The notes beneath the pieces are model-generated. The model ran no database searches. It saw nothing but the letters and a program-made list of their open reading frames with translations, and was not told the DNA's origin. From Nitrospirota bacterium (lineage in GTDB: Bacteria > Nitrospirota > Nitrospiria > JACQBW01): a DNA stretch of 57,014 nt. The position numbers and the translations under genes are program-made. Positions 7,585 through 56,864 of the stretch are shown here, one piece after another. Numbering within the stretch: the first letter of the stretch is position 1; each line of letters begins with the position of its first letter. Location of the stretch: positions 1 to 57,014 of the forward strand of contig JACOTA010000064.1 of assembly GCA_016178585.1 (NCBI GenBank). The letters are read 5' to 3'.

Positions 7585-8202
7585 CTAGGCAACGTAGAAA
7601 AGGATGGCAAAATAGTGGCTGGCACTTCCGGCCAGGACGAAAAGATGCCAGATTCCGTGGCTGTGAGCCAGCCGCTCTTCCAACGCAAAGAAAATTACGC
7701 CAATCGTGTAAAATAGCCCTCCGATGACAAGCCAGGCTACGCCGGCAAAGGGTAAGGCTTGAGCTAGTGGTTGTATCGCAATTAAGCCTGTCCAACCCAT
7801 CATAATGTAAATAACGACCGACAAAATTCTGGCCTCTTTCTTTAAGAAAGTCTCCTGCAGCATGCCAAAAATGGCCAGCACCCAGATCACCCCAAATAAC
7901 GACCATCCCCAGGGGCCCCTTAACGTAACCAGGGTAATGGGCGTATAAGTCCCTGCAATTAAAAGATAGATGGTTAGATGCTCAAGTTTTTGAAAAACGG
8001 TCTTGGCTTTACCATGAAAACTATGGTAAAGGGTCGAAAAGGTATAAAGAATCAATAAGATCGTGCCGTAAACGGTAAAACTGACAATTTTCCAAGGGTC
8101 ATTCTGCCGTGCCGCGATAACGATCAGAAACACCATGCCGATCCCGGCAAATACGGCGCCCAATAAATGGGTTAATCCGTTAAAACGCTCTCCCTTGTAC
8201 AT
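7585..8202 (-). CDS. Hemolysin III family (PAQR-like) membrane protein
   Basis: A 205-residue inner-membrane protein with seven predicted hydrophobic helices. It carries the family signatures: an N-terminal ERFNGLTHLLGAV, STLYHSF in the second helix, and a C-terminal HGIWHLFVLAGSASHYFAILFYV. The conserved Ser and His residues are thought to bind a metal, as in adiponectin receptors. The bacterial relatives (YqfA/TrhA, Bacillus HlyIII) are linked to membrane-lipid homeostasis; the true substrate is not known. The ATG has a strong GGGGAGG ribosome site. It stands alone between bolA and the large lipoprotein gene and is transcribed away from the latter's start. Confidence 0.88.
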   Translation of the reverse strand: MYKGERFNGLTHLLGAVFAGIGMVFLIVIAARQNDPWKIVSFTVYGTILLILYTFSTLYHSFHGKAKTVFQKLEHLTIYLLIAGTYTPITLVTLRGPWGWSLFGVIWVLAIFGMLQETFLKKEARILSVVIYIMMGWTGLIAIQPLAQALPFAGVAWLVIGGLFYTIGVIFFALEERLAHSHGIWHLFVLAGSASHYFAILFYVA

Positions 8203-8316: not shown

Positions 8317-11202
8317 TCAAAATGAGTTTCCCATGCTGAAATAGATTTGTTTCTCTCCTGAGGAATTCAACCCTAAAGCGGTTCCAAGCCGGCCTCGTAC
8401 CGGCAAATGGTAAAAAAGATTGAAATCGACTTTGAATTCGGCTCCGACACCCGTTTTGAAATCCTGGATTGATGGCGTTTGATCCCAGGCGGCTCCGTAA
8501 TCCACAAATAAACCGGCATGGAGCCTTTTGACAAAATAGGGAATGGTTCCACTCCCTTTTTCAACGAGTGGGAAAGGAAACCTGTATTCAAGATTGGCAA
8601 CAATCATATTTTGTCCAATCATCTGATGAGAGGGATACCCTCTTAAAAAAAAATCATCCTGTTCTAGAAAGGGCTGATCAATGACTAAAGGGCCTCCCAA
8701 TTGAAACGCCCGCTGAGCGATTAGCTCCCCTTGACCGATTCCGCCGGTTATTTGGCCTGCCAGGACACCGTGAGGAACAAACAAAGCGTGGTATTCACGG
8801 ATATTTGCGATATATTTAACAAGGTTAAAATCACTTCCTAATTTTTTGTCCGAATCTTCTATCAAGAGCTGAACCGTTCTCCCCTCTTCATGGCTGATAG
8901 ACAAAGGGTATTCTTCGGAAGAGTCATAAATGTATCCCCCTTTGATCGTACTCAGGGTTCCCGTTTGCGGAGGTAGAAATCCAAAAGGAGAAGAAAGGGG
9001 CGAAAAACCTTTTCTTTCAAATCCTATTTTTAGAACCTGCTTTGAATGAAATCTTAAAAAAGGAAATAAAAAATTCGCTTTAAAAATTTGCTGGCGCTCC
9101 CAATAACTATTTCTTTGACCCGTCGAATTGACTAATAAATTGGCATAATATTTTGGCGTATCAGAATACCCAAGGTCAAGGGTAGAGTAGAATTGGTCAT
9201 TCATATAGTCTAACAGGTAAGAAAACCTCTTGCTTTCCAGACCATAAAGGCCCACGACCAGGTACCGATGTTGTCTTAAAACATCTATTCCGGTCGTCCA
9301 GGCTCCCAGTTGGGCCCCCGCTTCGTCAATGCCTCCCCAGGGCACCCAGAATTGGGGAAAAAGGGTCTTCCAGGGAGTATAAGGAACACTTTTAAAGGTT
9401 TCGGGAACCTGTATCTTTTTTGTGTGGTCTTGTCCCGGCCTTTCTTTTATTAAATCCTCTTTTTCTTGCTTCCCTGTGAAAAAAAATTTACTTTCCATCA
9501 CCGCAAGATCGAATCCTTTGGCGCCGTAGGTCGAAAATAAAATCTCTTTTCGACCAGGAGACACAGATGGGAGAAAAACGCCTCCCAGCACATTCGTTAA
9601 TTGACGAATCTCCTTTGTCTTTAGATCGTATCCATGCAGGTTATAGATACCGTTGCGATCTGACACAAACAGAATCTGATCGTCAGTCGTTCCGGGGACA
9701 GGAGTCAGATTTTGAAATGAATCGTCGGTCAGTTGCTCTTTTTCCCGGGTCTTCCGGTCAAATAGATAAATATTTTGTTTCCCCTTTTCCCACCCCGAAA
9801 AGACAATTTTTTCTTCATCATTCAGCCATCTGGGACTGGAAATCAGAAACGAATCTGAAAAAGGGGTCATTCCGATAACCGCTGACTTTTCGAAACTCCA
9901 AAGCGCCAATCTGTTTTTTCCCAGCTCCTCCTGGACAAAAACAAGAAAATGCCCCTGGGGAGAATAATCAACCTCTTTGCCCCTCAATCCATTCGTCAAT
10001 CTTTTGGTCTCTTTTTTTGAAAGATCGCGGGAGTAAAGATCACTAAAAAAGGAAAAGTTTTGATAAACCTCAAGCTGGGAATAGATGATTTTCTGACCAT
10101 CGGGAGACCATGCCGCGTCAAAACCGGTATTCCGCCGGGAAAGAACCCGGTCGTTTTTTCCCTCCCGATCGACAACGTGAAAAGAAGGATAATGATCCGG
10201 GCTATGCTCCGTATATAAAATATTTTTTCCGTCAGGAGAATACCGTCCGCCTAAAATCTCGTTCCCCCTATCCGTTAAAAGACGAACGGACGTAAGGCCC
10301 AAATCCCTGACCTTTTTTGCCGCCGTAGAATAACGAACATTTAATCCAGTCCTCCATTCAGCCCATAAATCAAGGTAATCTCTTTCCAAAACCTCTTCGG
10401 CTGTTTTTTCAACGCGAAACGGAAGCGTATTCCGGCTATATCTACGGCTGATTTCCGTTAACTTTTCGGGCCCATATTTTTTTGCGATAAATTGATAGAA
10501 CTTTGCGCCATAAAGATAGGGGAGAAAACCATCCGGCCAGATTGTTAACGCTCCGCTCGCCTGATCAATGGAATCAAGCTGATGATCCAGCACGGCCATT
10601 CGTAAAATCATTTCGGTAAAAGAGTTATCCATCCGGTCGCTGGTTCCTTCTGTGGTTTCCATATAAACCGCCAACCCTTCAATCATCCAAAGGGGCTGCC
10701 AGATATTTGGAATCGAAAATAACGGGACCGGATTTCTTCCAAAGAAATACCGCATCAATAAAGGGAAACCACCGACCGAATCAAGATGGAGAATATGCGT
10801 ATATTCATGGGTAATGACCACCCGAAGCCAATCCTCATATCGAATCGGTTGAATGCCTAATCCACCCGCGGGCTGGGTAGGGGTTATGGTGATAATATTG
10901 TTCGGAAAGGGGGTTGCCTGACCAAAAACAGCATCGAGATAATCCGAAATAATCAGATCGGTTTTAGACCCCGGCGTCCATTGAAACCGTTGAGAAAGTG
11001 ACTGGTGAACCTCTTCCGCGATCTGTGACGCTTTCAGGGCAATTTCTTGCTCATTTTGATGGTAATAAACCTGAAAATGAGGAGATTCAATAACTTCCCA
11101 TCGTAGCTGTGGATCAAACTTTTCAAAGGGAATGAAGGTTGGCCCGCATCCATAAAGAGAAAAAAAAATAATAAGGGCATAAATCAGCTTGAATCTGCGC
11201 AT
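8317..11202 (-). CDS. Outer-membrane lipoprotein: peptidase-like domain, TolB-like propeller and Omp85-like barrel
   Basis: A 961-residue protein. Residues 1-19 are a lipoprotein signal with lipobox LYGC (Cys19). Residues 36-290 look like a gluzincin metallopeptidase (peptidase MA type): HEYTH at 132-136 gives two zinc His and the catalytic Glu, and EGLAVY at 175-180 gives the third ligand. Residues 305-570 hold repeated SPDGK/WSPDGQ-type blades of a TolB/DPP6-like beta-propeller. From about 605 to the C-terminal Phe the pattern is an outer-membrane barrel of the bacterial surface antigen type, including an FLRGY motif like the Omp85 loop-6 VRGF/Y. No POTRA domain is visible. The architecture is seen directly; an envelope protease or protein-assembly role is inference. 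Confidence 0.8.
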   Translation of the reverse strand: MRRFKLIYALIIFFSLYGCGPTFIPFEKFDPQLRWEVIESPHFQVYYHQNEQEIALKASQIAEEVHQSLSQRFQWTPGSKTDLIISDYLDAVFGQATPFPNNIITITPTQPAGGLGIQPIRYEDWLRVVITHEYTHILHLDSVGGFPLLMRYFFGRNPVPLFSIPNIWQPLWMIEGLAVYMETTEGTSDRMDNSFTEMILRMAVLDHQLDSIDQASGALTIWPDGFLPYLYGAKFYQFIAKKYGPEKLTEISRRYSRNTLPFRVEKTAEEVLERDYLDLWAEWRTGLNVRYSTAAKKVRDLGLTSVRLLTDRGNEILGGRYSPDGKNILYTEHSPDHYPSFHVVDREGKNDRVLSRRNTGFDAAWSPDGQKIIYSQLEVYQNFSFFSDLYSRDLSKKETKRLTNGLRGKEVDYSPQGHFLVFVQEELGKNRLALWSFEKSAVIGMTPFSDSFLISSPRWLNDEEKIVFSGWEKGKQNIYLFDRKTREKEQLTDDSFQNLTPVPGTTDDQILFVSDRNGIYNLHGYDLKTKEIRQLTNVLGGVFLPSVSPGRKEILFSTYGAKGFDLAVMESKFFFTGKQEKEDLIKERPGQDHTKKIQVPETFKSVPYTPWKTLFPQFWVPWGGIDEAGAQLGAWTTGIDVLRQHRYLVVGLYGLESKRFSYLLDYMNDQFYSTLDLGYSDTPKYYANLLVNSTGQRNSYWERQQIFKANFLFPFLRFHSKQVLKIGFERKGFSPLSSPFGFLPPQTGTLSTIKGGYIYDSSEEYPLSISHEEGRTVQLLIEDSDKKLGSDFNLVKYIANIREYHALFVPHGVLAGQITGGIGQGELIAQRAFQLGGPLVIDQPFLEQDDFFLRGYPSHQMIGQNMIVANLEYRFPFPLVEKGSGTIPYFVKRLHAGLFVDYGAAWDQTPSIQDFKTGVGAEFKVDFNLFYHLPVRGRLGTALGLNSSGEKQIYFSMGNSF

Positions 11203-11222: not shown

Positions 11223-11267
11223 GAATTAAAATTTTGTCTGATCTTAAAGAGGAATTAAAATTTTGTC
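11223..11267. repeat. Short tandem duplication spanning the promoter of the minus-strand lipoprotein gene
   Basis: A 16-base unit (GAATTAAAATTTTGTC) occurs at 11223-11238 and 11252-11267, a 29-base period, and the sequences after each copy are also similar (ATCTTAAAG / ACTTAAAG). On the minus strand the unit contains the -35 box and spacer of the promoter, so the duplication copies part of a promoter. Confidence 0.75.
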
Positions 11268-11269
11268 AA
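11241..11269 (-). promoter_or_regulatory. Promoter of the 961-residue lipoprotein gene
   Basis: On the minus strand TTGACA (11269-11264) and TAAGAT (11246-11241) are 17 bases apart. The predicted start near 11234 gives a leader of about 30 bases before ATG 11202. Confidence 0.6.
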
Positions 11270-11293
11270 CTTAAAGAAAATATCTCTAAGAGA

Positions 11294-11322
11294 TTGATTA
11301 TTTTAAGTAAAAAGGCTATAAA
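11294..11322 (+). promoter_or_regulatory. msrA promoter, leaderless layout
   Basis: TTGATT at 11294-11299 and TATAAA at 11317-11322 are 17 bases apart. Only seven bases separate the -10 box from ATG 11330, so the transcript should start at or within the start codon. Confidence 0.6.
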
Positions 11323-11329
11323 GATATTA

Positions 11330-11890
11330 ATGAAACAGACGGAATCTTTTCAAAAAGAGAGGGGAATCGCGACCCTTGGAGGAGGGTGTTTTTGGTGCCT
11401 TGATGCTGTTTTCGCCGAGCTTGCCGGGGTGGAAAAAGTCGAATCGGGTTATTCCGGCGGTACGGTGCCCAATCCCTCCTATAAACAGGTTTGCACAGAA
11501 ACCACCGGACATGCAGAAGTGGTTCAGCTCACATTCAATCCTCAGGTTATCTCTTTTAAGGACCTTCTGGAAATCTTTTTTACTTTCCACGACCCAACGA
11601 CCTTAAATCGCCAGGGTGCGGATACCGGCACCCAGTATCGGTCAGCCATTTTTTACCATAGCCCGGAACAAAAAATGATGGCCGAACAGGTCATAAAAGA
11701 AATCAACGCCTCTCAAATTTGGAATGCTCCTATTGTCACTGAGGTTTTCCCATTTACAACGTTTTATCGCGCGGAAAACTATCACCAGGAATATTATAAA
11801 AACAATCCGGACCAGTTGTATTGCGTCGCTGTCATAGCGCCTAAAGTAGCGAAGTTCCATAAAAAATACTTTTCGAAACTTAAGAAATGA
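11330..11890 (+). CDS. msrA: Peptide-methionine (S)-S-oxide reductase
   Basis: MsrA repairs oxidised methionine (the S-sulfoxide) in proteins using thioredoxin. The protein is 186 residues with the active-site motif GGGCFWC (catalytic Cys20), the typical VESGYSGG, the HAEVVQ loop and HDPTTLNRQGADTGTQYRS. The frame is open back to TTG 11234, but that region overlaps the divergent promoters and encodes a Lys/Ile-rich extension absent in the family. ATG 11330 directly follows a -10 box, which fits a leaderless start. It is divergent from the large lipoprotein gene. Confidence 0.93.
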   Translation: MKQTESFQKERGIATLGGGCFWCLDAVFAELAGVEKVESGYSGGTVPNPSYKQVCTETTGHAEVVQLTFNPQVISFKDLLEIFFTFHDPTTLNRQGADTGTQYRSAIFYHSPEQKMMAEQVIKEINASQIWNAPIVTEVFPFTTFYRAENYHQEYYKNNPDQLYCVAVIAPKVAKFHKKYFSKLKK

Positions 11891-48859: not shown

Positions 48860-51800
48860 TTGCGGAAAAGAATCATTTTTATTTTCTCTTTAATTATACT
48901 TTCTCTTCTAATCATCAATCTTCTTTTTCGAGGCGGGTTATTTTCCGAGCCTTTAAAAAGATTTGTGGTTAAAAAAATAGAACAAGAACTCCATGCGTCA
49001 GTAGCGGTCGACAAGGTCCGTCTAACTCTATTTCCCGCCTTTCTGATCCTGGATGATTTCGAATTGGAAGAGTCGAAGGATGCTCCCCGGGTATTAAAAT
49101 CGAAACAAATTATCCTTTCTTTTAGTCCATGGTCCCTTCTCACCGAATTTCTTCTCATTAATAAAATCCATTTCCAGGATCCGGAAATCCATCTGATCTG
49201 GAATCATGAAGGAAAAACGAATTTCGATTTTCTTAAAACGGCGTTTGTCCGTTCCAGAGCGCCAAACCAGAAATCCCCTGTCATTATTCAGAAAATCACT
49301 CTTATCAATGGATCTCTTGATATTGATCAAGATCTGAAAAATAATCATGTTTCCATGAAACATATCGAGTTTAAAACCGACACAGACCCAACCATGACCT
49401 TTTTTCAGATTTCCGGATCAGCTAAAAAAATCTCGTATCAGTCGGGCAGAAAAGATGTCGAGACTTTCGCCAGTGCGGATTGGAGATTATCCATAACCCC
49501 GCAGCATTTAGAAATCAAAAGATTCGCTGTCTCGGCCAAAGAAACAGCCGTCACCCTAAAGGGAATCGTCAGTTTTCCGCCTAACCAAAAAACATACCCA
49601 TTTAAAGTCGATTCCGATTTCCATTTCGGCACAAGAGCTTTGCTTGCCGGTTTTGATACTTTAACCGGCCATGGATTGATTGAAGGAAACTACGACGGGG
49701 AAAAACAGATTAAGGGCAGCCTGATCCTGTCTCATCTCGCTTTTGAAAAAGATAAAGGGGTCCACAAGTTTGGGGAACTTAAGAGCCGCTTTTCTTTTGA
49801 GCCCGGGTTGATTTTTTTCGACGATTTTAATTCAAAGTTCTTTGGGGGGAAAATTGACGGAAAAATCAAGTTCCGGTTTAATGACTCCTCCAGCCTTTTG
49901 GAAACCGACTATCGTTTGCATAATGTCTCTTTATCCCAGCCAGTCTTATTGTTTTTTCCCCGCTACAAAATTTATTCAGACGGAAAAACGCTTGACGCCT
50001 CGGGAACCTTGAAATTAATCAATATGGATATGCACCAGCTCAGTGGTTCCGGACACTTTCGTCTGACGGGAACGCCCCAAAGGGTTTTAAACTCCAAAAC
50101 CCCGTTATGGGAAAGCGCAATGAACGCCCTCGTCCTCGCAGAGACTGATTATGAGTTGCGCTCTTCTGCCTTTTTTTTTAGCCATTCCTCTTTGCAAATC
50201 GGCTCCTCTTTGATTAACGGAAACGGCGCCGTACAGCAGGGGGGAACATTTTCAACTTTTCTAAACTTAAGATCGGAAAACGGCGGAGAAGTCATTTCCT
50301 GGTTGGGGTATCCTCAGTGGTCGGGCGCGGTTGACTTTACCGGAGAAGCCCGGGGAACATTCACCTCTCCCGTATTCGAAGGCAAAGGAACCGCTTCCAA
50401 TGTGTTTTTTGACAATCATTCATTGGGAACAGGGTCGGCTCATTTAAAATATTCCGATCACCGGCTCGAGTTTACCCAGGTAAAAATAAATAAAGGCAAA
50501 GGAGAATATTCCGGAGAAGGCAACATTCACTGGAAGTCCCTGGATGAATTTAATTATCAAATCAATGCCTTCGCCTCGCCCGGAATTCCTGACGACATCA
50601 TTCGTATTTTTATTGACAACATTCCTCTCTATACTCAAGCCACGGGACCGGTCGTCATCAGCGGAGACCATCAAACATTCAGCGTAAAAGGAAATTTGGA
50701 CGTGGCGAACGGATTCATTTACGATCAAGGTTTTGATCAAGGGCACGTTGAAATTGAAATTACCGGGTCCGGCGTTTCCTTCAACAAAACATCGTTAGTT
50801 CATGGAAACTCCTCCGTCACCGGAAAGGGAAAAATATTCTTCAACGGAGAATACGAAGGGGAATTAAAATCTGAAAATTTTCGTTTCACGGATTTAACCG
50901 TTTTAAATCAAACTCTTCCTGAAGTTCAAGGCTCCTTCAACGGAAACATCCACGGCAGTGGAACATTTGAACATCCGGACCTGATACTGGCGGGCGCCCT
51001 GGCGGATTTATCTTATAAAAATCAAAAAATAAAACCAGGATTAATCGCCCTCACCCTGGCGGATAAAGAACTTAAAACACATCTCACATTTAATGAATAT
51101 CCCATGATCGTCGACGGGTCTATCGGCATCACGACTCCTTTTGTTTCAAAACTTGAAATTCAGGGAGAAAAAATCCCTTTGGGTTCCTGGTTCAACGCCT
51201 TTAACGCCGAATCCAATTTTCAGGCCCAATCTTTTACGGGCTCCGTTTCAGGAAAAATCGGGATTGAGGGGCCCTTGAACGATCCCAAAAGTTTAAACCT
51301 TTCAGCCCATTTGACCCAATTAAAAGCCGATTTATCGGGTTATGAGATTATCAATCAGGAAGAGATCGTTTTTACCCTTTCCGATGGAAAACTCAACATA
51401 GATTCATGCCGATTAAAAGGCGAGGGAACGACCCTGTCCATTGCCGGCGGATTAGATCTCTTCAGGCAATATCGGCTTTTTATAACGGGGGAAGCCGATC
51501 TGTCGTTATTAAAAGCGCTAAGGAAGGAGATTACTTACGGAAAAGGAAAGGCCTATCTGGCCCTTAATATTTATGATCGTTGGAATGATCCAAAACTACA
51601 GGGTGGTCTAACCATTCAGGATGGTCAAATTCGAACCACGGCCGTTTCTCAGGCTATCCGTATTTCTTCAATGGCCCTTTTCTTTAATGAACGTCAGGTT
51701 TTTCTTGAATCATTGGATGCCGGGTTTGGAGAAGGAGCGCTTCACGGGACCGGAAAAATTGATCTCGATCGCTTTAAAGTCGCACATTTCGGATTGATAT

Positions 51801-52759
51801 TGGAGGCCAAAGAGAGTCGTTTTTCGCTTTTTCCGGGTTGGACATCCACTGTTTCAGGAAGTCTCTTTTACCAGGGAGACCTTTCCACTCAGGCTCTTCA
51901 AGGAGAATTGACGCTGAATCACGGGGTCTATAACAAAAAAATTGACGTTAGATCGTTATTGACTAAATTGTCCGAACTGGAAGAAAAAACAGAGCCGACG
52001 CCTTTAATAGGAAAAACACGATTAAACGTCCGGCTTACCGGGGATGACGATTTAAGAATCAATAATAACCTTGCCCGGCTTCCTTTCACGGTGGATTTAA
52101 CCGTAAAGGGAACTGTAGACCATCCCGTATTAATTGGAAGAATGGAGGCTGACTCCGGTTCGATTCTCTTTTATAATCGAACTTTTAGCGTCAATTCCAT
52201 CGCGGTCGATTTTATCGATCCCGAAGCCATCAAACCCCTCATTGATTTAAAAGCCCGGACCCAGGTTACCGGGAAAGACAACAAATCTTATCAAATTGAT
52301 TTAAGTTTTGCCGGGGGTTTGGATAAGATTAAGCCAACGCTTACCGCAGACGACCCGGGTCTCACGGAAACGGATATCCTGTCTCTCATTCTTGCGGGTC
52401 GAACGGCGACAGAGGTTGCAACGGATCCTTTTTCTCAGCAGCAAATCGGCGGCCAGTTCGTCCCTTTAGTGATCGAATCTCCCCTGGAAGGGTTATTGGA
52501 GGATCTCACGGGAGTCAACAGGTTATTTATTGAACCCTTGCCTTCCGGAATACGGTCAACCGGCGGGCCTCGAGTCACCGTAGAACAACGTTTATTGGGA
52601 GAAAAGCTTCTATTGACCTATTCGTATACCATTAACCCCTCACAGGATCAAATTATCAAGATGGAATATTTAATTAACCGCCATATTTTTTTACAGGGAA
52701 TTAGAAACGAAGAAGGAAACGCCGGAGGCAATTTAAAGTTTCGTTTTGAATTTAAATAA
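48860..52759 (+). CDS. tamB: TamB-like translocation and assembly protein
   Basis: TamB is anchored in the inner membrane and spans the periplasm as a long beta-groove, working with TamA in outer-membrane protein assembly and phospholipid transport. The 1299-residue protein has an N-terminal membrane helix (about 4-25), an AsmA-like region and a very long beta-rich body. Its C-terminal DUF490 includes PFTVDLTVKGTVDHPVLIGRMEADSGSI-like strands, the typical TETDILSLILAGR, and a closing strand. TTG 48860 has GGAG six bases before it. The Omp85 gene follows after 11 bases, so this is a TamB-TamA type pair. Confidence 0.92.
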   Translation: MRKRIIFIFSLIILSLLIINLLFRGGLFSEPLKRFVVKKIEQELHASVAVDKVRLTLFPAFLILDDFELEESKDAPRVLKSKQIILSFSPWSLLTEFLLINKIHFQDPEIHLIWNHEGKTNFDFLKTAFVRSRAPNQKSPVIIQKITLINGSLDIDQDLKNNHVSMKHIEFKTDTDPTMTFFQISGSAKKISYQSGRKDVETFASADWRLSITPQHLEIKRFAVSAKETAVTLKGIVSFPPNQKTYPFKVDSDFHFGTRALLAGFDTLTGHGLIEGNYDGEKQIKGSLILSHLAFEKDKGVHKFGELKSRFSFEPGLIFFDDFNSKFFGGKIDGKIKFRFNDSSSLLETDYRLHNVSLSQPVLLFFPRYKIYSDGKTLDASGTLKLINMDMHQLSGSGHFRLTGTPQRVLNSKTPLWESAMNALVLAETDYELRSSAFFFSHSSLQIGSSLINGNGAVQQGGTFSTFLNLRSENGGEVISWLGYPQWSGAVDFTGEARGTFTSPVFEGKGTASNVFFDNHSLGTGSAHLKYSDHRLEFTQVKINKGKGEYSGEGNIHWKSLDEFNYQINAFASPGIPDDIIRIFIDNIPLYTQATGPVVISGDHQTFSVKGNLDVANGFIYDQGFDQGHVEIEITGSGVSFNKTSLVHGNSSVTGKGKIFFNGEYEGELKSENFRFTDLTVLNQTLPEVQGSFNGNIHGSGTFEHPDLILAGALADLSYKNQKIKPGLIALTLADKELKTHLTFNEYPMIVDGSIGITTPFVSKLEIQGEKIPLGSWFNAFNAESNFQAQSFTGSVSGKIGIEGPLNDPKSLNLSAHLTQLKADLSGYEIINQEEIVFTLSDGKLNIDSCRLKGEGTTLSIAGGLDLFRQYRLFITGEADLSLLKALRKEITYGKGKAYLALNIYDRWNDPKLQGGLTIQDGQIRTTAVSQAIRISSMALFFNERQVFLESLDAGFGEGALHGTGKIDLDRFKVAHFGLILEAKESRFSLFPGWTSTVSGSLFYQGDLSTQALQGELTLNHGVYNKKIDVRSLLTKLSELEEKTEPTPLIGKTRLNVRLTGDDDLRINNNLARLPFTVDLTVKGTVDHPVLIGRMEADSGSILFYNRTFSVNSIAVDFIDPEAIKPLIDLKARTQVTGKDNKSYQIDLSFAGGLDKIKPTLTADDPGLTETDILSLILAGRTATEVATDPFSQQQIGGQFVPLVIESPLEGLLEDLTGVNRLFIEPLPSGIRSTGGPRVTVEQRLLGEKLLLTYSYTINPSQDQIIKMEYLINRHIFLQGIRNEEGNAGGNLKFRFEFK

Positions 52760-52770
52760 TAATCGGACCT

Positions 52771-55560
52771 ATGAACCTGCTCCCTTTTAAACGCCCATGC
52801 CTGATTTTTTTCGTGATCCTCCTTCTTTTTTACCCTCTGGTGGAAGCTATCGGTTTTGAAACGGATTCGTCGGTTCCGATCGTAACAAGCATTTCCATTC
52901 AAAACCCCCAGGGAGAATCCTATAAACGCCTGATCAAAGATTTACCCATTTCCGTTGGAAGCCGTTTTTCAACAAAAGTCGTTAAAAAAAGCATGGAGCG
53001 GCTTTACGAAACGGGCCTTTTTTCTAACGTCATCGTCGCCACCGATAAGGGTTCAAGCGGGATTTCGATAAAACTAATCGTATTGGATAAGTTGAGAATT
53101 GGAGGTTTCGTTTGGAAAGGAAACGAATATTTTTTCCGCGAAAGGTTGGAAGAGGTTTCCAGGTTAAAGGTTGAGGATGAGCTCGTTCAGGGATGGGAGA
53201 AAGACCTTGAACAGACGTTAATCCGGTTTTATCATCGTGAAGGTTTTTTCAACGCAAAAATCGACGTTGGGTCTCGCCCCATGGGGAAGCCCAGCCGGCT
53301 TCAGGTCGAGATTAAGATCCAGGAAGGGATTCAAAGTACCATTGGAAATATCTATTTTTCCGGGAATCCCGGCTTCGATCAAGAACGGTTGCTGGAAGTT
53401 TTGAGGATTCATCCCGGTTTTTATTACTCAAGAGAGACGATTCAAAATGATATCGAAAATTTAAAACCCTTTTATTACAGGGCAAGGTATTTAAAAGTGA
53501 AAATCAGAGACTTTGCCGTTCACACGCAGGGCGACGATAGAGTCGCCATTGAAATACCTGTTGAAGCAGGTCCCCGAATATTCACGTTTATTTCCTTCAA
53601 AGGTCCCCGCCACTATCTGAAGACGACGCTGGTCCGGCAACTCCTGATCGACGAAGAAAAAAGCATCGACGATGCGACAATAGAAGAAAGTAAAAAACGG
53701 CTTTCGGAATTCTATCAAAATGAAGGGTACCCTTTTGTTGAAATAACGGTTGAACGCCGGGAAGAAAATAACGGGAAAATCGTCAACGTTTATTTCCATA
53801 TTGCGGAAGGCCCGGCAGTCCTTTTGACCCGCCTGGTTTTCAAAGGAAACGCCTCAATATCAGACGACATTTTGAAAAATGTCATTGGCCATCAAAAAAC
53901 AGGATTTTGGATTCCCCGCTATCTCCAGCTTCCCGCGCTTCAAAATGACCTGGAATCTCTGCTCAAGGTTTACCGGTCACATGGTTTTCTGTCAGCCAAG
54001 ATTAATAAATCCCTTCATTATTCCCCCGACCAGGCCACTGTTGCTCTCGAATTTGAAATCTCGGAAGGGGTCCAGACCCTCGTTCAATCCGTGACCCTGG
54101 AGGAAATCTCACAAACCTTTCTTCCGGATATTTTAAAAAAAATTCAGATCCGAGAAAATAGTCCTTATAACGAGGCCGTGATTCTCGAAGATAAGATCGC
54201 TATTGCTTCTTACTACCATAAGCTTGGTTATCCGGACGTCAACATCGAGGCAACAGCCGCCTTCAGCAAAACCACGGACCGCGTAGATGTCAAATATAAG
54301 GTTGATGAAGGAAATCAAATAAAGATCGGAAAAATCCTGGCAACAGGAAACGAAAGAACCCGGACGGGCGTCATTTTGAGAGAGTTGTATTTCCATTCAG
54401 GGGACCTTTACCAGGAAGAACTTCTTTTGAAAAGTCAAAGAAAGATCTCCCAGCTCGGTTATTTCCAATTTGTGAACATCCGCCCAAAAGACGCAGAGGA
54501 AGACCAGGTCGTTCGCGATGTTGAAGTCAATGTAAAGGAACGAGACGCCGGCGCATTTGAGTTTGGAGCGGGTTACGCCGATGTCGAACGATTTAAGGGT
54601 TTTGCTGAAATTTCACATAAAAATATCGGAGGAACCGGCCGAAGGGCAAGTCTGGGAGCAGAGGTAAGCCAGATTGGGGATAAAGAGACCGCCAATTATA
54701 CCGAACCGTGGATATTTGATTTTCCCCTGGATGCCAGGGCCTCAATTTATCACGAATCGATACAAAAACTACCCGCGAGTTACACCCAAACCACCGTCGG
54801 AGGCTCTGTGGGGGTCGAGAAATCGTTTTGGGATTATTATAAATTTTCTCTCCAGTACCAAAACGACATTTTTCATTTTATCAATGTTCCTATAAATGCC
54901 GTGTTAACACAGGAAGACAAGGACCGCGTAAATATTGCAAGTCTAAATCCATCACTATTCAGAGACACACGGGATGATTTTTTAAACCCTAAAACGGGAT
55001 CTTTTAACGCGATCTGGTTCCGCTGGGCAGCGAATTTTTTGGCTTCCGAAATACAGGAAGTTAAGCTCACCCTCCAGTCAAGCTGGTATTTTCCCCTGAC
55101 ACCTAACCTGATTATGGGGATTTCTTCACGCGGCGGAGTCGCGTATAACTTTGGGGAAACTCCAGATGTCCCAATCAGTGAACGTTTCAAATTGGGAGGA
55201 CGATCAACAGTAAGAGGGTACGCGGAAGATACCCTGGGCACCCTCGGACAAACGATTAACCCTTCGATGATTAACCCGTTGGTCTTCACTCCGACGGGAG
55301 GAAACTCCATGTTGGTTTTCAACTGGGAATTCCGGTTCAACCTTCCAAAAAACCTGGGGCTTGTCTTCTTTTTTGATTCCGGAAATGTCTGGCGATATCA
55401 TAATTCCATTTGGTCCTCACCGCTGAAGTCTTCGGTCGGACCAGGTTTGCGGTATAATACTCCTATAGGCCCTATTCGGTTTGACGTCGGATATAAATTA
55501 AACCGGGAGGAATGGGAAAGCGCTTCAGAATTTCATTTTACTCTGGGCCACGCTTTTTGA
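52771..55560 (+). CDS. Omp85-family outer-membrane protein with seven POTRA-like repeats (TamA/BamA-like)
   Basis: A 929-residue protein with a signal peptide (about 1-26). Residues 36-592 hold seven POTRA-like units, each ending in a long strand. Boundaries, by eye, are 36-106, 107-187, 188-267, 268-348, 349-434, 435-514 and 515-592, with motifs such as FYHREGFFNAKI, FYQNEGYPFVEI, YRSHGFLSAKI and YYHKLGYPDVNI. The C-terminal 16-strand barrel (about 593-929) has VRGYAEDTLG for the loop-6 motif and ends in Phe. BamA has five POTRAs and TamA three. Being next to tamB suggests the TamA role; a BamA-like role is possible. Confidence 0.92.
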   Translation: MNLLPFKRPCLIFFVILLLFYPLVEAIGFETDSSVPIVTSISIQNPQGESYKRLIKDLPISVGSRFSTKVVKKSMERLYETGLFSNVIVATDKGSSGISIKLIVLDKLRIGGFVWKGNEYFFRERLEEVSRLKVEDELVQGWEKDLEQTLIRFYHREGFFNAKIDVGSRPMGKPSRLQVEIKIQEGIQSTIGNIYFSGNPGFDQERLLEVLRIHPGFYYSRETIQNDIENLKPFYYRARYLKVKIRDFAVHTQGDDRVAIEIPVEAGPRIFTFISFKGPRHYLKTTLVRQLLIDEEKSIDDATIEESKKRLSEFYQNEGYPFVEITVERREENNGKIVNVYFHIAEGPAVLLTRLVFKGNASISDDILKNVIGHQKTGFWIPRYLQLPALQNDLESLLKVYRSHGFLSAKINKSLHYSPDQATVALEFEISEGVQTLVQSVTLEEISQTFLPDILKKIQIRENSPYNEAVILEDKIAIASYYHKLGYPDVNIEATAAFSKTTDRVDVKYKVDEGNQIKIGKILATGNERTRTGVILRELYFHSGDLYQEELLLKSQRKISQLGYFQFVNIRPKDAEEDQVVRDVEVNVKERDAGAFEFGAGYADVERFKGFAEISHKNIGGTGRRASLGAEVSQIGDKETANYTEPWIFDFPLDARASIYHESIQKLPASYTQTTVGGSVGVEKSFWDYYKFSLQYQNDIFHFINVPINAVLTQEDKDRVNIASLNPSLFRDTRDDFLNPKTGSFNAIWFRWAANFLASEIQEVKLTLQSSWYFPLTPNLIMGISSRGGVAYNFGETPDVPISERFKLGGRSTVRGYAEDTLGTLGQTINPSMINPLVFTPTGGNSMLVFNWEFRFNLPKNLGLVFFFDSGNVWRYHNSIWSSPLKSSVGPGLRYNTPIGPIRFDVGYKLNREEWESASEFHFTLGHAF

Positions 55561-55574
55561 TTATAAGGACCCCA

Positions 55575-56864
55575 ATGAGAAAAATATTTTTTTTCGGTTT
55601 GTCAGGAATGGTTATTCTGTTTTTGGTTTATTTCACGACCGGGAAAACCTTTCAAAGCTCGCAGATTCAGACCGGAGCCGTTCGGAGAATTCAGGATTCA
55701 AATCCAGCCGTGGTTAAGCTGAATCAGGCCGGGTTGCGCTATTTTGAATCCAAACAATTTGAAATGGCGAGAGACCAGTTCAAGTCGGCGCTTGAACTAT
55801 CGCCAAACGACCCTACGCTCTTGAATAACCTGGCGTTTTCCCAAATGGAAATCGGAAAAATTCAGGGACAAAAACTTCAATTAAAGGAAGCCATTGCCTC
55901 TTTTGAATCGGCCATTCAAATTAATCCGAATATTTCTACGTTTCATGTCGGCGCCGGGTGGGCCTATGACAAAGCGGAACAGGAGGAAAAGGCCCTCCAG
56001 GAACTGGAGGAAGCCATTCGCCTAAATCCAAAAGAAATATTGGCCTATCAATTGCTGGGAGATATTTACTACAAAAATGACAACCCTGATAAGGCCATAG
56101 AGGCCCTGGAAAAAGCCCTTGCCCTTCAGCCTGATGAGAAATCACTTCAACAGCGATTGGCGAAAATTAAACAGGACCGAAATACCGAGTCTAAATTTGA
56201 AAAATCCGCTTCTTTTCACTTTACAATAAAATTTGAAGGAGAAGAAAACAAAGAGATCGCTCAAAAGGTTTCAGAAATTTTGGAAGCGGCCTACCGTGAC
56301 ATTGGATCCATCTTTTATCAAAAATCTTTTCGTCCGGTGATCGTTATTCTCTATTCCGATAAATTGTTTCGGGAAACGGTTCACAGTCCCTCATGGGCGG
56401 GAGGGATATACGACGGAAAAATCCGGATTCCGGTCCAGGGGTCCGCCAAAGACCCTGAAGGACTTAGAAGAATCTTATACCATGAGTACACCCACGCGGT
56501 CCTTTTCCAACTTACGCCGTCCCCTATTCCGACCTGGTTAAATGAGGGATTGGCAATGTATTTTGAAGGAAACCATTCTATGAATAACGCCCTTCAAATC
56601 GTAGATTCCGCGAGGCGGGAGGGAAGGTTGATCCCTCTGCGCCGCCTGCAGGGAACTTTTATGGATATGGACGCAAACACCTCTGAGCTGGCCTACCAGG
56701 AAAGCAGAATTGCCGTTCAAAACTTAATCGATCATTACAGTATCAAGCGCATTCGCGACGTTTTAGAAAGGTATAGAGGACTTGACCAATTCGCTTCGGT
56801 TTTTGAAGAGGGCTTTCTGATCTCCTATGATGACTATGAAAAGTCCTTTATGGCCGGTAAATAG
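55575..56864 (+). CDS. TPR protein with peptidase MA-like metalloprotease domain
   Basis: A 429-residue protein with an N-terminal membrane anchor or signal (about 4-22) and three to four TPRs (about 45-200; AGLRYFESKQFEMARDQFKSAL-type repeats). The C-terminal domain has HEYTH (303-307) followed by PTWLNEGLAMYFEG (EGLAMY 324-329), a gluzincin-type zinc site of peptidase MA. ATG 55575 has AAGGA five bases before it; the frame is open from 55512 but inside the Omp85 gene. It follows the Omp85 stop by 14 bases, so one transcript is likely. Periplasmic protease or chaperone is inference. Confidence 0.85.
   Translation: MRKIFFFGLSGMVILFLVYFTTGKTFQSSQIQTGAVRRIQDSNPAVVKLNQAGLRYFESKQFEMARDQFKSALELSPNDPTLLNNLAFSQMEIGKIQGQKLQLKEAIASFESAIQINPNISTFHVGAGWAYDKAEQEEKALQELEEAIRLNPKEILAYQLLGDIYYKNDNPDKAIEALEKALALQPDEKSLQQRLAKIKQDRNTESKFEKSASFHFTIKFEGEENKEIAQKVSEILEAAYRDIGSIFYQKSFRPVIVILYSDKLFRETVHSPSWAGGIYDGKIRIPVQGSAKDPEGLRRILYHEYTHAVLFQLTPSPIPTWLNEGLAMYFEGNHSMNNALQIVDSARREGRLIPLRRLQGTFMDMDANTSELAYQESRIAVQNLIDHYSIKRIRDVLERYRGLDQFASVFEEGFLISYDDYEKSFMAGK

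Follow-up and report, generated by a model that had tools for sequence, protein, structure and literature searches.

The window analysed here is a 57,014-nucleotide stretch of DNA from a Nitrospirota bacterium. An open reading frame of 961 codons plus stop, with an ATG start, fills positions 8317..11202 of the minus strand exactly; a plus-strand reading of this interval was rejected, as it contains 43 stops. Its neighbours are a gene of the haemolysin-III family (7585..8202, minus strand) and, divergently oriented on the other side, a gene for methionine sulfoxide reductase (11234..11890, plus strand), so that the ORF may be monocistronic or be followed by the haemolysin-III gene in the same transcript. 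Upstream of it, at 11269-11241 on the minus strand, is a 10/12 match to the consensus promoter, from a type of scan that often matches by chance. Its features are:

8317..11202, minus strand: whole gene, 961 aa, with a gluzincin domain, a TolB-like propeller and an Omp85 barrel (ORF, Pfam, NCBIfam, AlphaFold2)
11146..11202, minus strand: signal peptide with lipobox LYGC, putative lipidated Cys at residue 19 (sequence; Cys kept in the Nitrospiria clade)
10303..11100, minus strand: M1-like gluzincin (peptidase MA) domain, residues 35-300 (AlphaFold2, Foldseek to M1 aminopeptidases)
10795..10809, minus strand: HEYTH, putative zinc-binding motif, residues 132-136 (H132, E133 and H136 invariant in 94/94 relatives)
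10669..10680, minus strand: EGLA, residues 175-178, with putative third zinc ligand E175 (E175, G176 and A178 invariant in 94/94)
10507..10518, minus strand: YLYG, residues 229-232, at the position of the M1 catalytic Tyr (YxxG-x11-G; Y229 and G232 in 94/94)
9493..10287, minus strand: TolB-like beta-propeller, residues 306-570 (NCBIfam TolB 3.9e-29, Foldseek TolB 7.3e-13)
9391..9492, minus strand: low-confidence linker, residues 571-604 (pLDDT about 55-75 in the model; the split form described below breaks at the same boundary)
8320..9390, minus strand: 16-strand Omp85 barrel, residues 605-961 (DSSP of the model, Pfam Omp85, Foldseek BamA/TamA)
8635..8646, minus strand: LRGY of barrel loop 6, residues 853-856 (R854 in 91/94, G855 in 93/94)

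The domain anatomy of this protein is secure. A whole-chain AlphaFold2 model built from an 82-sequence alignment (A2) had a mean pLDDT of 91.9 and a pTM of 0.92, the latter implying a defined packing of the domains. A sequence-only reading of this DNA had described a zinc-peptidase-like domain, a propeller and a barrel in one chain, and proposed structure prediction as a check, with 16 barrel strands within the last 350 residues as supporting evidence; Pfam, NCBIfam and 94 relatives agree with that description, and the model contains all three domains and the expected barrel. Foldseek searches with the whole chain returned matches to single domains only (TMq at most 0.27).

In the model, HEYTH lies in helix 125-141 and E175 in the neighbouring helix 171-184, and HEYTH and EGLA come together in an M1-like fold, as had been anticipated. 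The peptidase domain modelled alone had a pLDDT of 91.6; its Foldseek matches, with E from 7.2e-6 and probability 1.0, were M1 aminopeptidases, among them IRAP (E 7e-6, probability 1.0), and LTA4 hydrolase. The predicted structure thus places an HExxH and a downstream Glu in the fold that defines gluzincins. The profile searches that had been suggested were positive for PD40 and Omp85, both above cut-off, but Peptidase_MA_2 (PF13485) reached only 15.5 and 19.8 bits in this protein against a cut-off of 32.4; homologues at loci L153 and L165 passed that cut-off. With a profile of 48 peptidase domains, the matches at E 0.08 were zinc metalloproteases and a cold-active aminopeptidase, which is weak taken alone.

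Conservation was assessed in the 94 full-length relatives. H132, E133, H136, E175, E182, R190, Y229 and G232 are invariant (94/94), the full YxxG-x11-G spacing is kept in 91/94, and the peptidase is the best conserved of the three domains (mean majority frequency 0.54, versus 0.47 and 0.45 for the others). Of the two seed patterns used to call up relatives, one contained the EG motif and neither contained HExxH; all 27 relatives found without motif seeds carry the full metal site. With the same layout in 94 relatives and the metal-site residues invariant throughout, this pattern is not due to chance. Since the HExxH, Glu and Tyr positions are invariant in the best conserved domain, catalysis appears to be under selection. 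The GxMEN motif that precedes HExxH in M1 exopeptidases was absent across the 94 relatives (one stray match), which suggests an endopeptidase; together with the retained YxxG-x11-G, we infer an active enzyme other than an M1 exopeptidase. Peptidase activity is thus likely, and the motifs point to zinc as the bound metal. The domain shares the catalytic-domain fold and the HExxH...EGxA...YxxG series with M1 aminopeptidases, but differs from them in lacking GxMEN and in a His-to-Glu spacing of 34-49 residues across its family, longer than the roughly 18 residues of M1 enzymes.

The propeller was detected by Pfam PD40 (31.2 bits, cut-off 20.9). NCBIfam models for the TolB propeller (3.9e-29) and an Omp85 family (9.8e-11) also matched, both under their equivalog/subfamily cut-offs, and a sequence search of the PDB returned mostly TolB entries, with BamA marginal. 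The linker between propeller and barrel is disordered in the AlphaFold2 model. In the barrel, Pfam Omp85 matched residues 743-961 at 38.2 bits (cut-off 24), and the model has 16 strands from residue 620 on, five of them after the LRGY loop, as in BamA. Foldseek matched the barrel to Deinococcus BamA (4.2e-10) and to TamA, while a profile of 48 barrels found a POTRA-domain protein (4.7e-8), Deinococcus BamA and Pseudomonas TamA. In the relatives, both the loop-6 RGY and the Omp85 strand EYRFP are strongly conserved. By its predicted 16-strand C-terminal barrel and RGY-type loop 6 the protein belongs to the Omp85 superfamily, although such a barrel need not be an active insertase.

BamA and TamA are further defined by POTRA domains, which the fusion protein lacks: a search of its own genome with PF07244 gave 13 matches, none of them in the fusion gene, in agreement with the sequence-only reading. 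The suggestion that the propeller replaces POTRA holds as anatomy but does not extend to the cell, as the genome keeps both BamA, with five POTRAs, and a TamA-like Omp85 protein rich in POTRAs. By this gene content, the fusion protein is best read as an addition to these proteins and not their substitute; replacement of BamA was rejected, the five-POTRA BamA being encoded on contig C19.

The lipobox-like LYGC19 is present as had been read, with an off-consensus Tyr at -2; the Cys and the small residue before it are kept throughout a single clade of 10 rows (SH-aLRT 99) within the class of the window (Nitrospiria, by titles of related records). Lipidation is not a defining property of the family, as it would be confined to this clade: most relatives have no lipobox, and those outside the clade carry mostly ordinary, SPase I-type signal peptides. 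In E. coli, the residue at +2 after the lipidated Cys sets outer-membrane sorting. In the clade members checked (L004 by eye) this residue is Gly, Ala, Ile or Val and never Asp, which is consistent with outer-membrane sorting of the Nitrospiria lipoprotein form. Lipidation and a C-terminal barrel in one chain had been considered odd, but Omp85 lipoproteins are already known as the 'Lipo' subfamily (PMC4104836). These likewise combine a lipid anchor and an Omp85 barrel in one chain, but have three POTRAs and are found in Bacteroidetes and Chlorobi; the protein described here has the lipobox and no POTRAs.

The layout is not isolated, as a check of orthologue distribution revealed. The 94 non-redundant full-length relatives have the same three-part layout and span several phyla: Nitrospirota, Gallionellales and Gammaproteobacteria, Mariprofundus, Myxococcota, Acidobacteriota, Latescibacterota, Aminicenantota and Margulisiibacteriota (taxa as titled). 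They were pooled from searches of relatives, of the phylum and of a genome-contig collection with an alignment as query; a single-protein scan of that collection gave no match, and the alignment was needed. Matches occurred in 34/296 Nitrospirota genomes (full-length model, E <= 1e-30). For an acidobacterial locus, its phylum gave matches in 67/149 genomes (peptidase model, E <= 1e-15); for an Anaeromyxobacter locus, the phylum gave 96/117, and for a gammaproteobacterial locus, the class gave 27/229 (both at E <= 1e-40). Many of the matches in Myxococcota and Acidobacteriota belong to a more distant branch of about 1000-aa proteins that was only sampled; one of its members (L167) has the HExxH and no Pfam peptidase or Omp85 match. 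The Latescibacterota protein L165 has Peptidase_MA_2, PD40 and Omp85 in one chain, all above Pfam cut-offs. A candidate barrel-less variant from Cloacimonadota (L100) was rejected, as it runs off the contig end.

The genome holds another copy at G000:C79:3496-6417 (L002, L157), 41% identical to the window protein. The window protein is a divergent second copy and groups with Manganitrophaceae proteins (support 93); the C79 copy groups elsewhere within the same clade. The C79 copy is preceded by a lipoprotein gene of unknown family, which also precedes the copies in L009 and L129. In the tree, Gallionellales copies nest within Nitrospirota, which suggests their acquisition from Nitrospirota by transfer. 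A member from a record titled Bifidobacterium breve (L112) groups with Acidobacteriota; its bin probably carries the wrong name or is contaminated. Two copies, one in Manganitrophus GAC4 (L048) and one in L012, are broken into two frames close to residue 823, through a frameshift or an assembly error.

Three genomes of one family (G059, G076 and G084; loci L152, L153 and L154) carry a split form, in which a peptidase-propeller lipoprotein of 567-576 aa is followed by a separate barrel-only Omp85 gene. The first protein of L153 has Peptidase_MA_2 above cut-off (36.3 bits), and the barrel genes encode 386 aa in L153 and 393 aa in L154 (Omp85 42.5-46.1 bits); the L152 barrel gene is cut by the contig end and lay outside the Omp85 scan. 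Both halves align with the fusion protein by hhalign (peptidase-propeller E 3.1e-46, barrel E 1.6e-26). The adjacency of two genes homologous to the two halves suggests that peptidase-propeller and barrel probably work together, and is the strongest evidence here that they act as a unit. Some POTRA-less 'noNterm' Omp85 proteins may have similar separate partners.

The split form also bears on a type Vd-like surface display, in which peptidase and propeller would leave the cell through their own barrel and work outside it. Surface peptidases are common, which lends this some appeal. Such display was first proposed for the patatin-Omp85 protein PlpD, but later work located the enzyme domain of PlpD in the periplasm (PMC11116518). 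As the split genomes have the peptidase-propeller as a separate lipoprotein, not covalently joined to the barrel, we regard surface display as improbable.

No universal partner gene was found beside the fusion gene across the loci searched. Recurrent neighbours, named by eye or Pfam (recN, nadK, dapB, mutS, a YfgM-like gene and others), are lineage-specific, and the BamE-like gene seen in Gallionellales and the YfgM-like one in Acidobacteriota are weak links as well. By eye, six Gallionellales loci (L045, L046, L049, L050, L054 and L074) have the gene downstream of a BamE-like gene and dapB, with recN most often further upstream. In Manganitrophaceae, a type IV pilin-like gene directly precedes the copy in L006, L007 and L008, with an N-methylation motif in L006. 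This adjacency to type IV pilin/pseudopilin-like genes could be read in favour of a secretion-and-processing channel, whose barrel would translocate a dedicated substrate, as FhaC/TpsB does, while the peptidase would trim this substrate in the periplasm, ahead of export or as it proceeds; Omp85 barrels do include translocases (PMC4104836). We consider this unlikely, however, as no conserved exoprotein gene was found beside the fusion gene across the loci and there is no POTRA for substrate capture.

The wide, patchy, partnerless distribution and the low-confidence linker before the barrel would also suit a tethered periplasmic peptidase that turns over peptides or proteins in general at the outer membrane, with the barrel serving as an anchor only. 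The loop-6 RGY and EYRFP strand are strongly conserved, as is the split partner barrel; a plain anchor would have no need of them, and the Nitrospiria form would already have a lipid anchor. A mere tether is therefore doubtful, if slightly easier to entertain than the channel.

A further pairing of peptidase and Omp85 barrel lies in the same window:

48860..52759, plus strand: TamB
52771..55560, plus strand: TamA-like Omp85 protein with about seven POTRAs
55512..56864, plus strand: TPR/Peptidase_MA_2 gene with HEYTH and EGLA, overlapping the Omp85 gene

An Omp85 neighbour was found beside this TPR/Peptidase_MA_2 gene in 18/30 loci, which are short and include the locus of the window itself. 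The gene product looks like a BepA-like partner of the TamA-like protein. With the fusion and the split form, this row gives at least three predicted arrangements in which an MA-clan peptidase is paired with an Omp85 protein.

The propeller-Omp85 part of the architecture is already known. The sequence-only reading had found no characterised system of this form; a propeller-Omp85 layout without POTRA was in fact named 'WD40-Omp85' in 2014 by Heinz and Lithgow, who compared it with a BamA-BamB fusion (PMC4104836), and the subfamily has stayed uncharacterised, WD40-like Omp85 proteins being described as not well characterised in the 2024 PlpD paper (PMC11116518). The protein described here shares with WD40-Omp85 a C-terminal Omp85 barrel, an N-terminal WD40-like propeller nearest to TolB and the lack of POTRA, but differs from its published description in the gluzincin with an invariant metal site that precedes the propeller and in the lipobox of the Nitrospiria form. 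The peptidase domain appears to be unreported: the text of Heinz and Lithgow has no word beginning 'peptidase', its 'metalloprotease' group is defined by PF00149 (PMC4104836), and full-text literature searches, with most subscription papers outside their cover, returned no description of a peptidase-propeller-Omp85 protein. The zinc peptidases BepA, YcaL and LoiP are linked to outer-membrane protein assembly (PMC13067283, PMC8423444). In E. coli, BepA with the BAM complex likewise sets an MA-clan zinc peptidase at an Omp85 barrel, and BamB of that complex is a propeller lipoprotein; BepA, however, is a separate M48 protein with TPRs, whereas here an M1-like domain, a propeller and a barrel form one chain. 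PlpD also has an enzyme domain fused N-terminally to an Omp85 barrel, but this is a lipase with one POTRA.

Taken together, the data favour, with a probability of roughly 0.45, a zinc endopeptidase that docks in the periplasm beneath an Omp85 barrel and takes part in outer-membrane protein quality control or processing, much as BepA does at BAM. The barrel would sit in the outer membrane, and the TolB/BamB-like propeller would dock beneath it on the periplasmic side, carrying the M1-like zinc endopeptidase; in Nitrospiria the N-terminus would be lipid-anchored as well. Substrates of the peptidase would be polypeptides engaged with the barrel or undergoing assembly close by, so that stalled outer-membrane or exported proteins would be cleared or processed, as BepA serves the BAM complex. 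The periplasmic orientation is probable; proteolysis and the class of substrate we infer, and the role in quality control is a reasoned guess. The pTM 0.92 model, the M1 match, the 94/94 metal site, the split form, the TamB-Omp85-TPR/peptidase row, the role of BepA, YcaL and LoiP in outer-membrane protein assembly and the periplasmic enzyme domain of PlpD speak for this proposal, while the lack of a universal partner and a genome already equipped with BamA and four M48-family peptidases speak against it. More tentatively still, the relatives may form a class of POTRA-less Omp85 machines in several phyla, whose periplasmic portion consists of an active M1-like peptidase and a propeller. Such a machine would amount to the BamA barrel, BamB and BepA fused into a single chain, and would serve the quality control or processing of outer-membrane proteins next to the normal BAM.

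The predicted, invariant zinc-peptidase site gives WD40-Omp85, without a function since 2014, its first testable activity, and E133 is the single residue to mutate for testing it. Judging by the split form and the TamB-Omp85-TPR/peptidase row, the pairing of a peptidase with an Omp85 barrel seems to have arisen more than once, which is relevant to the way in which bacteria other than the E. coli model may police their outer-membrane proteins.
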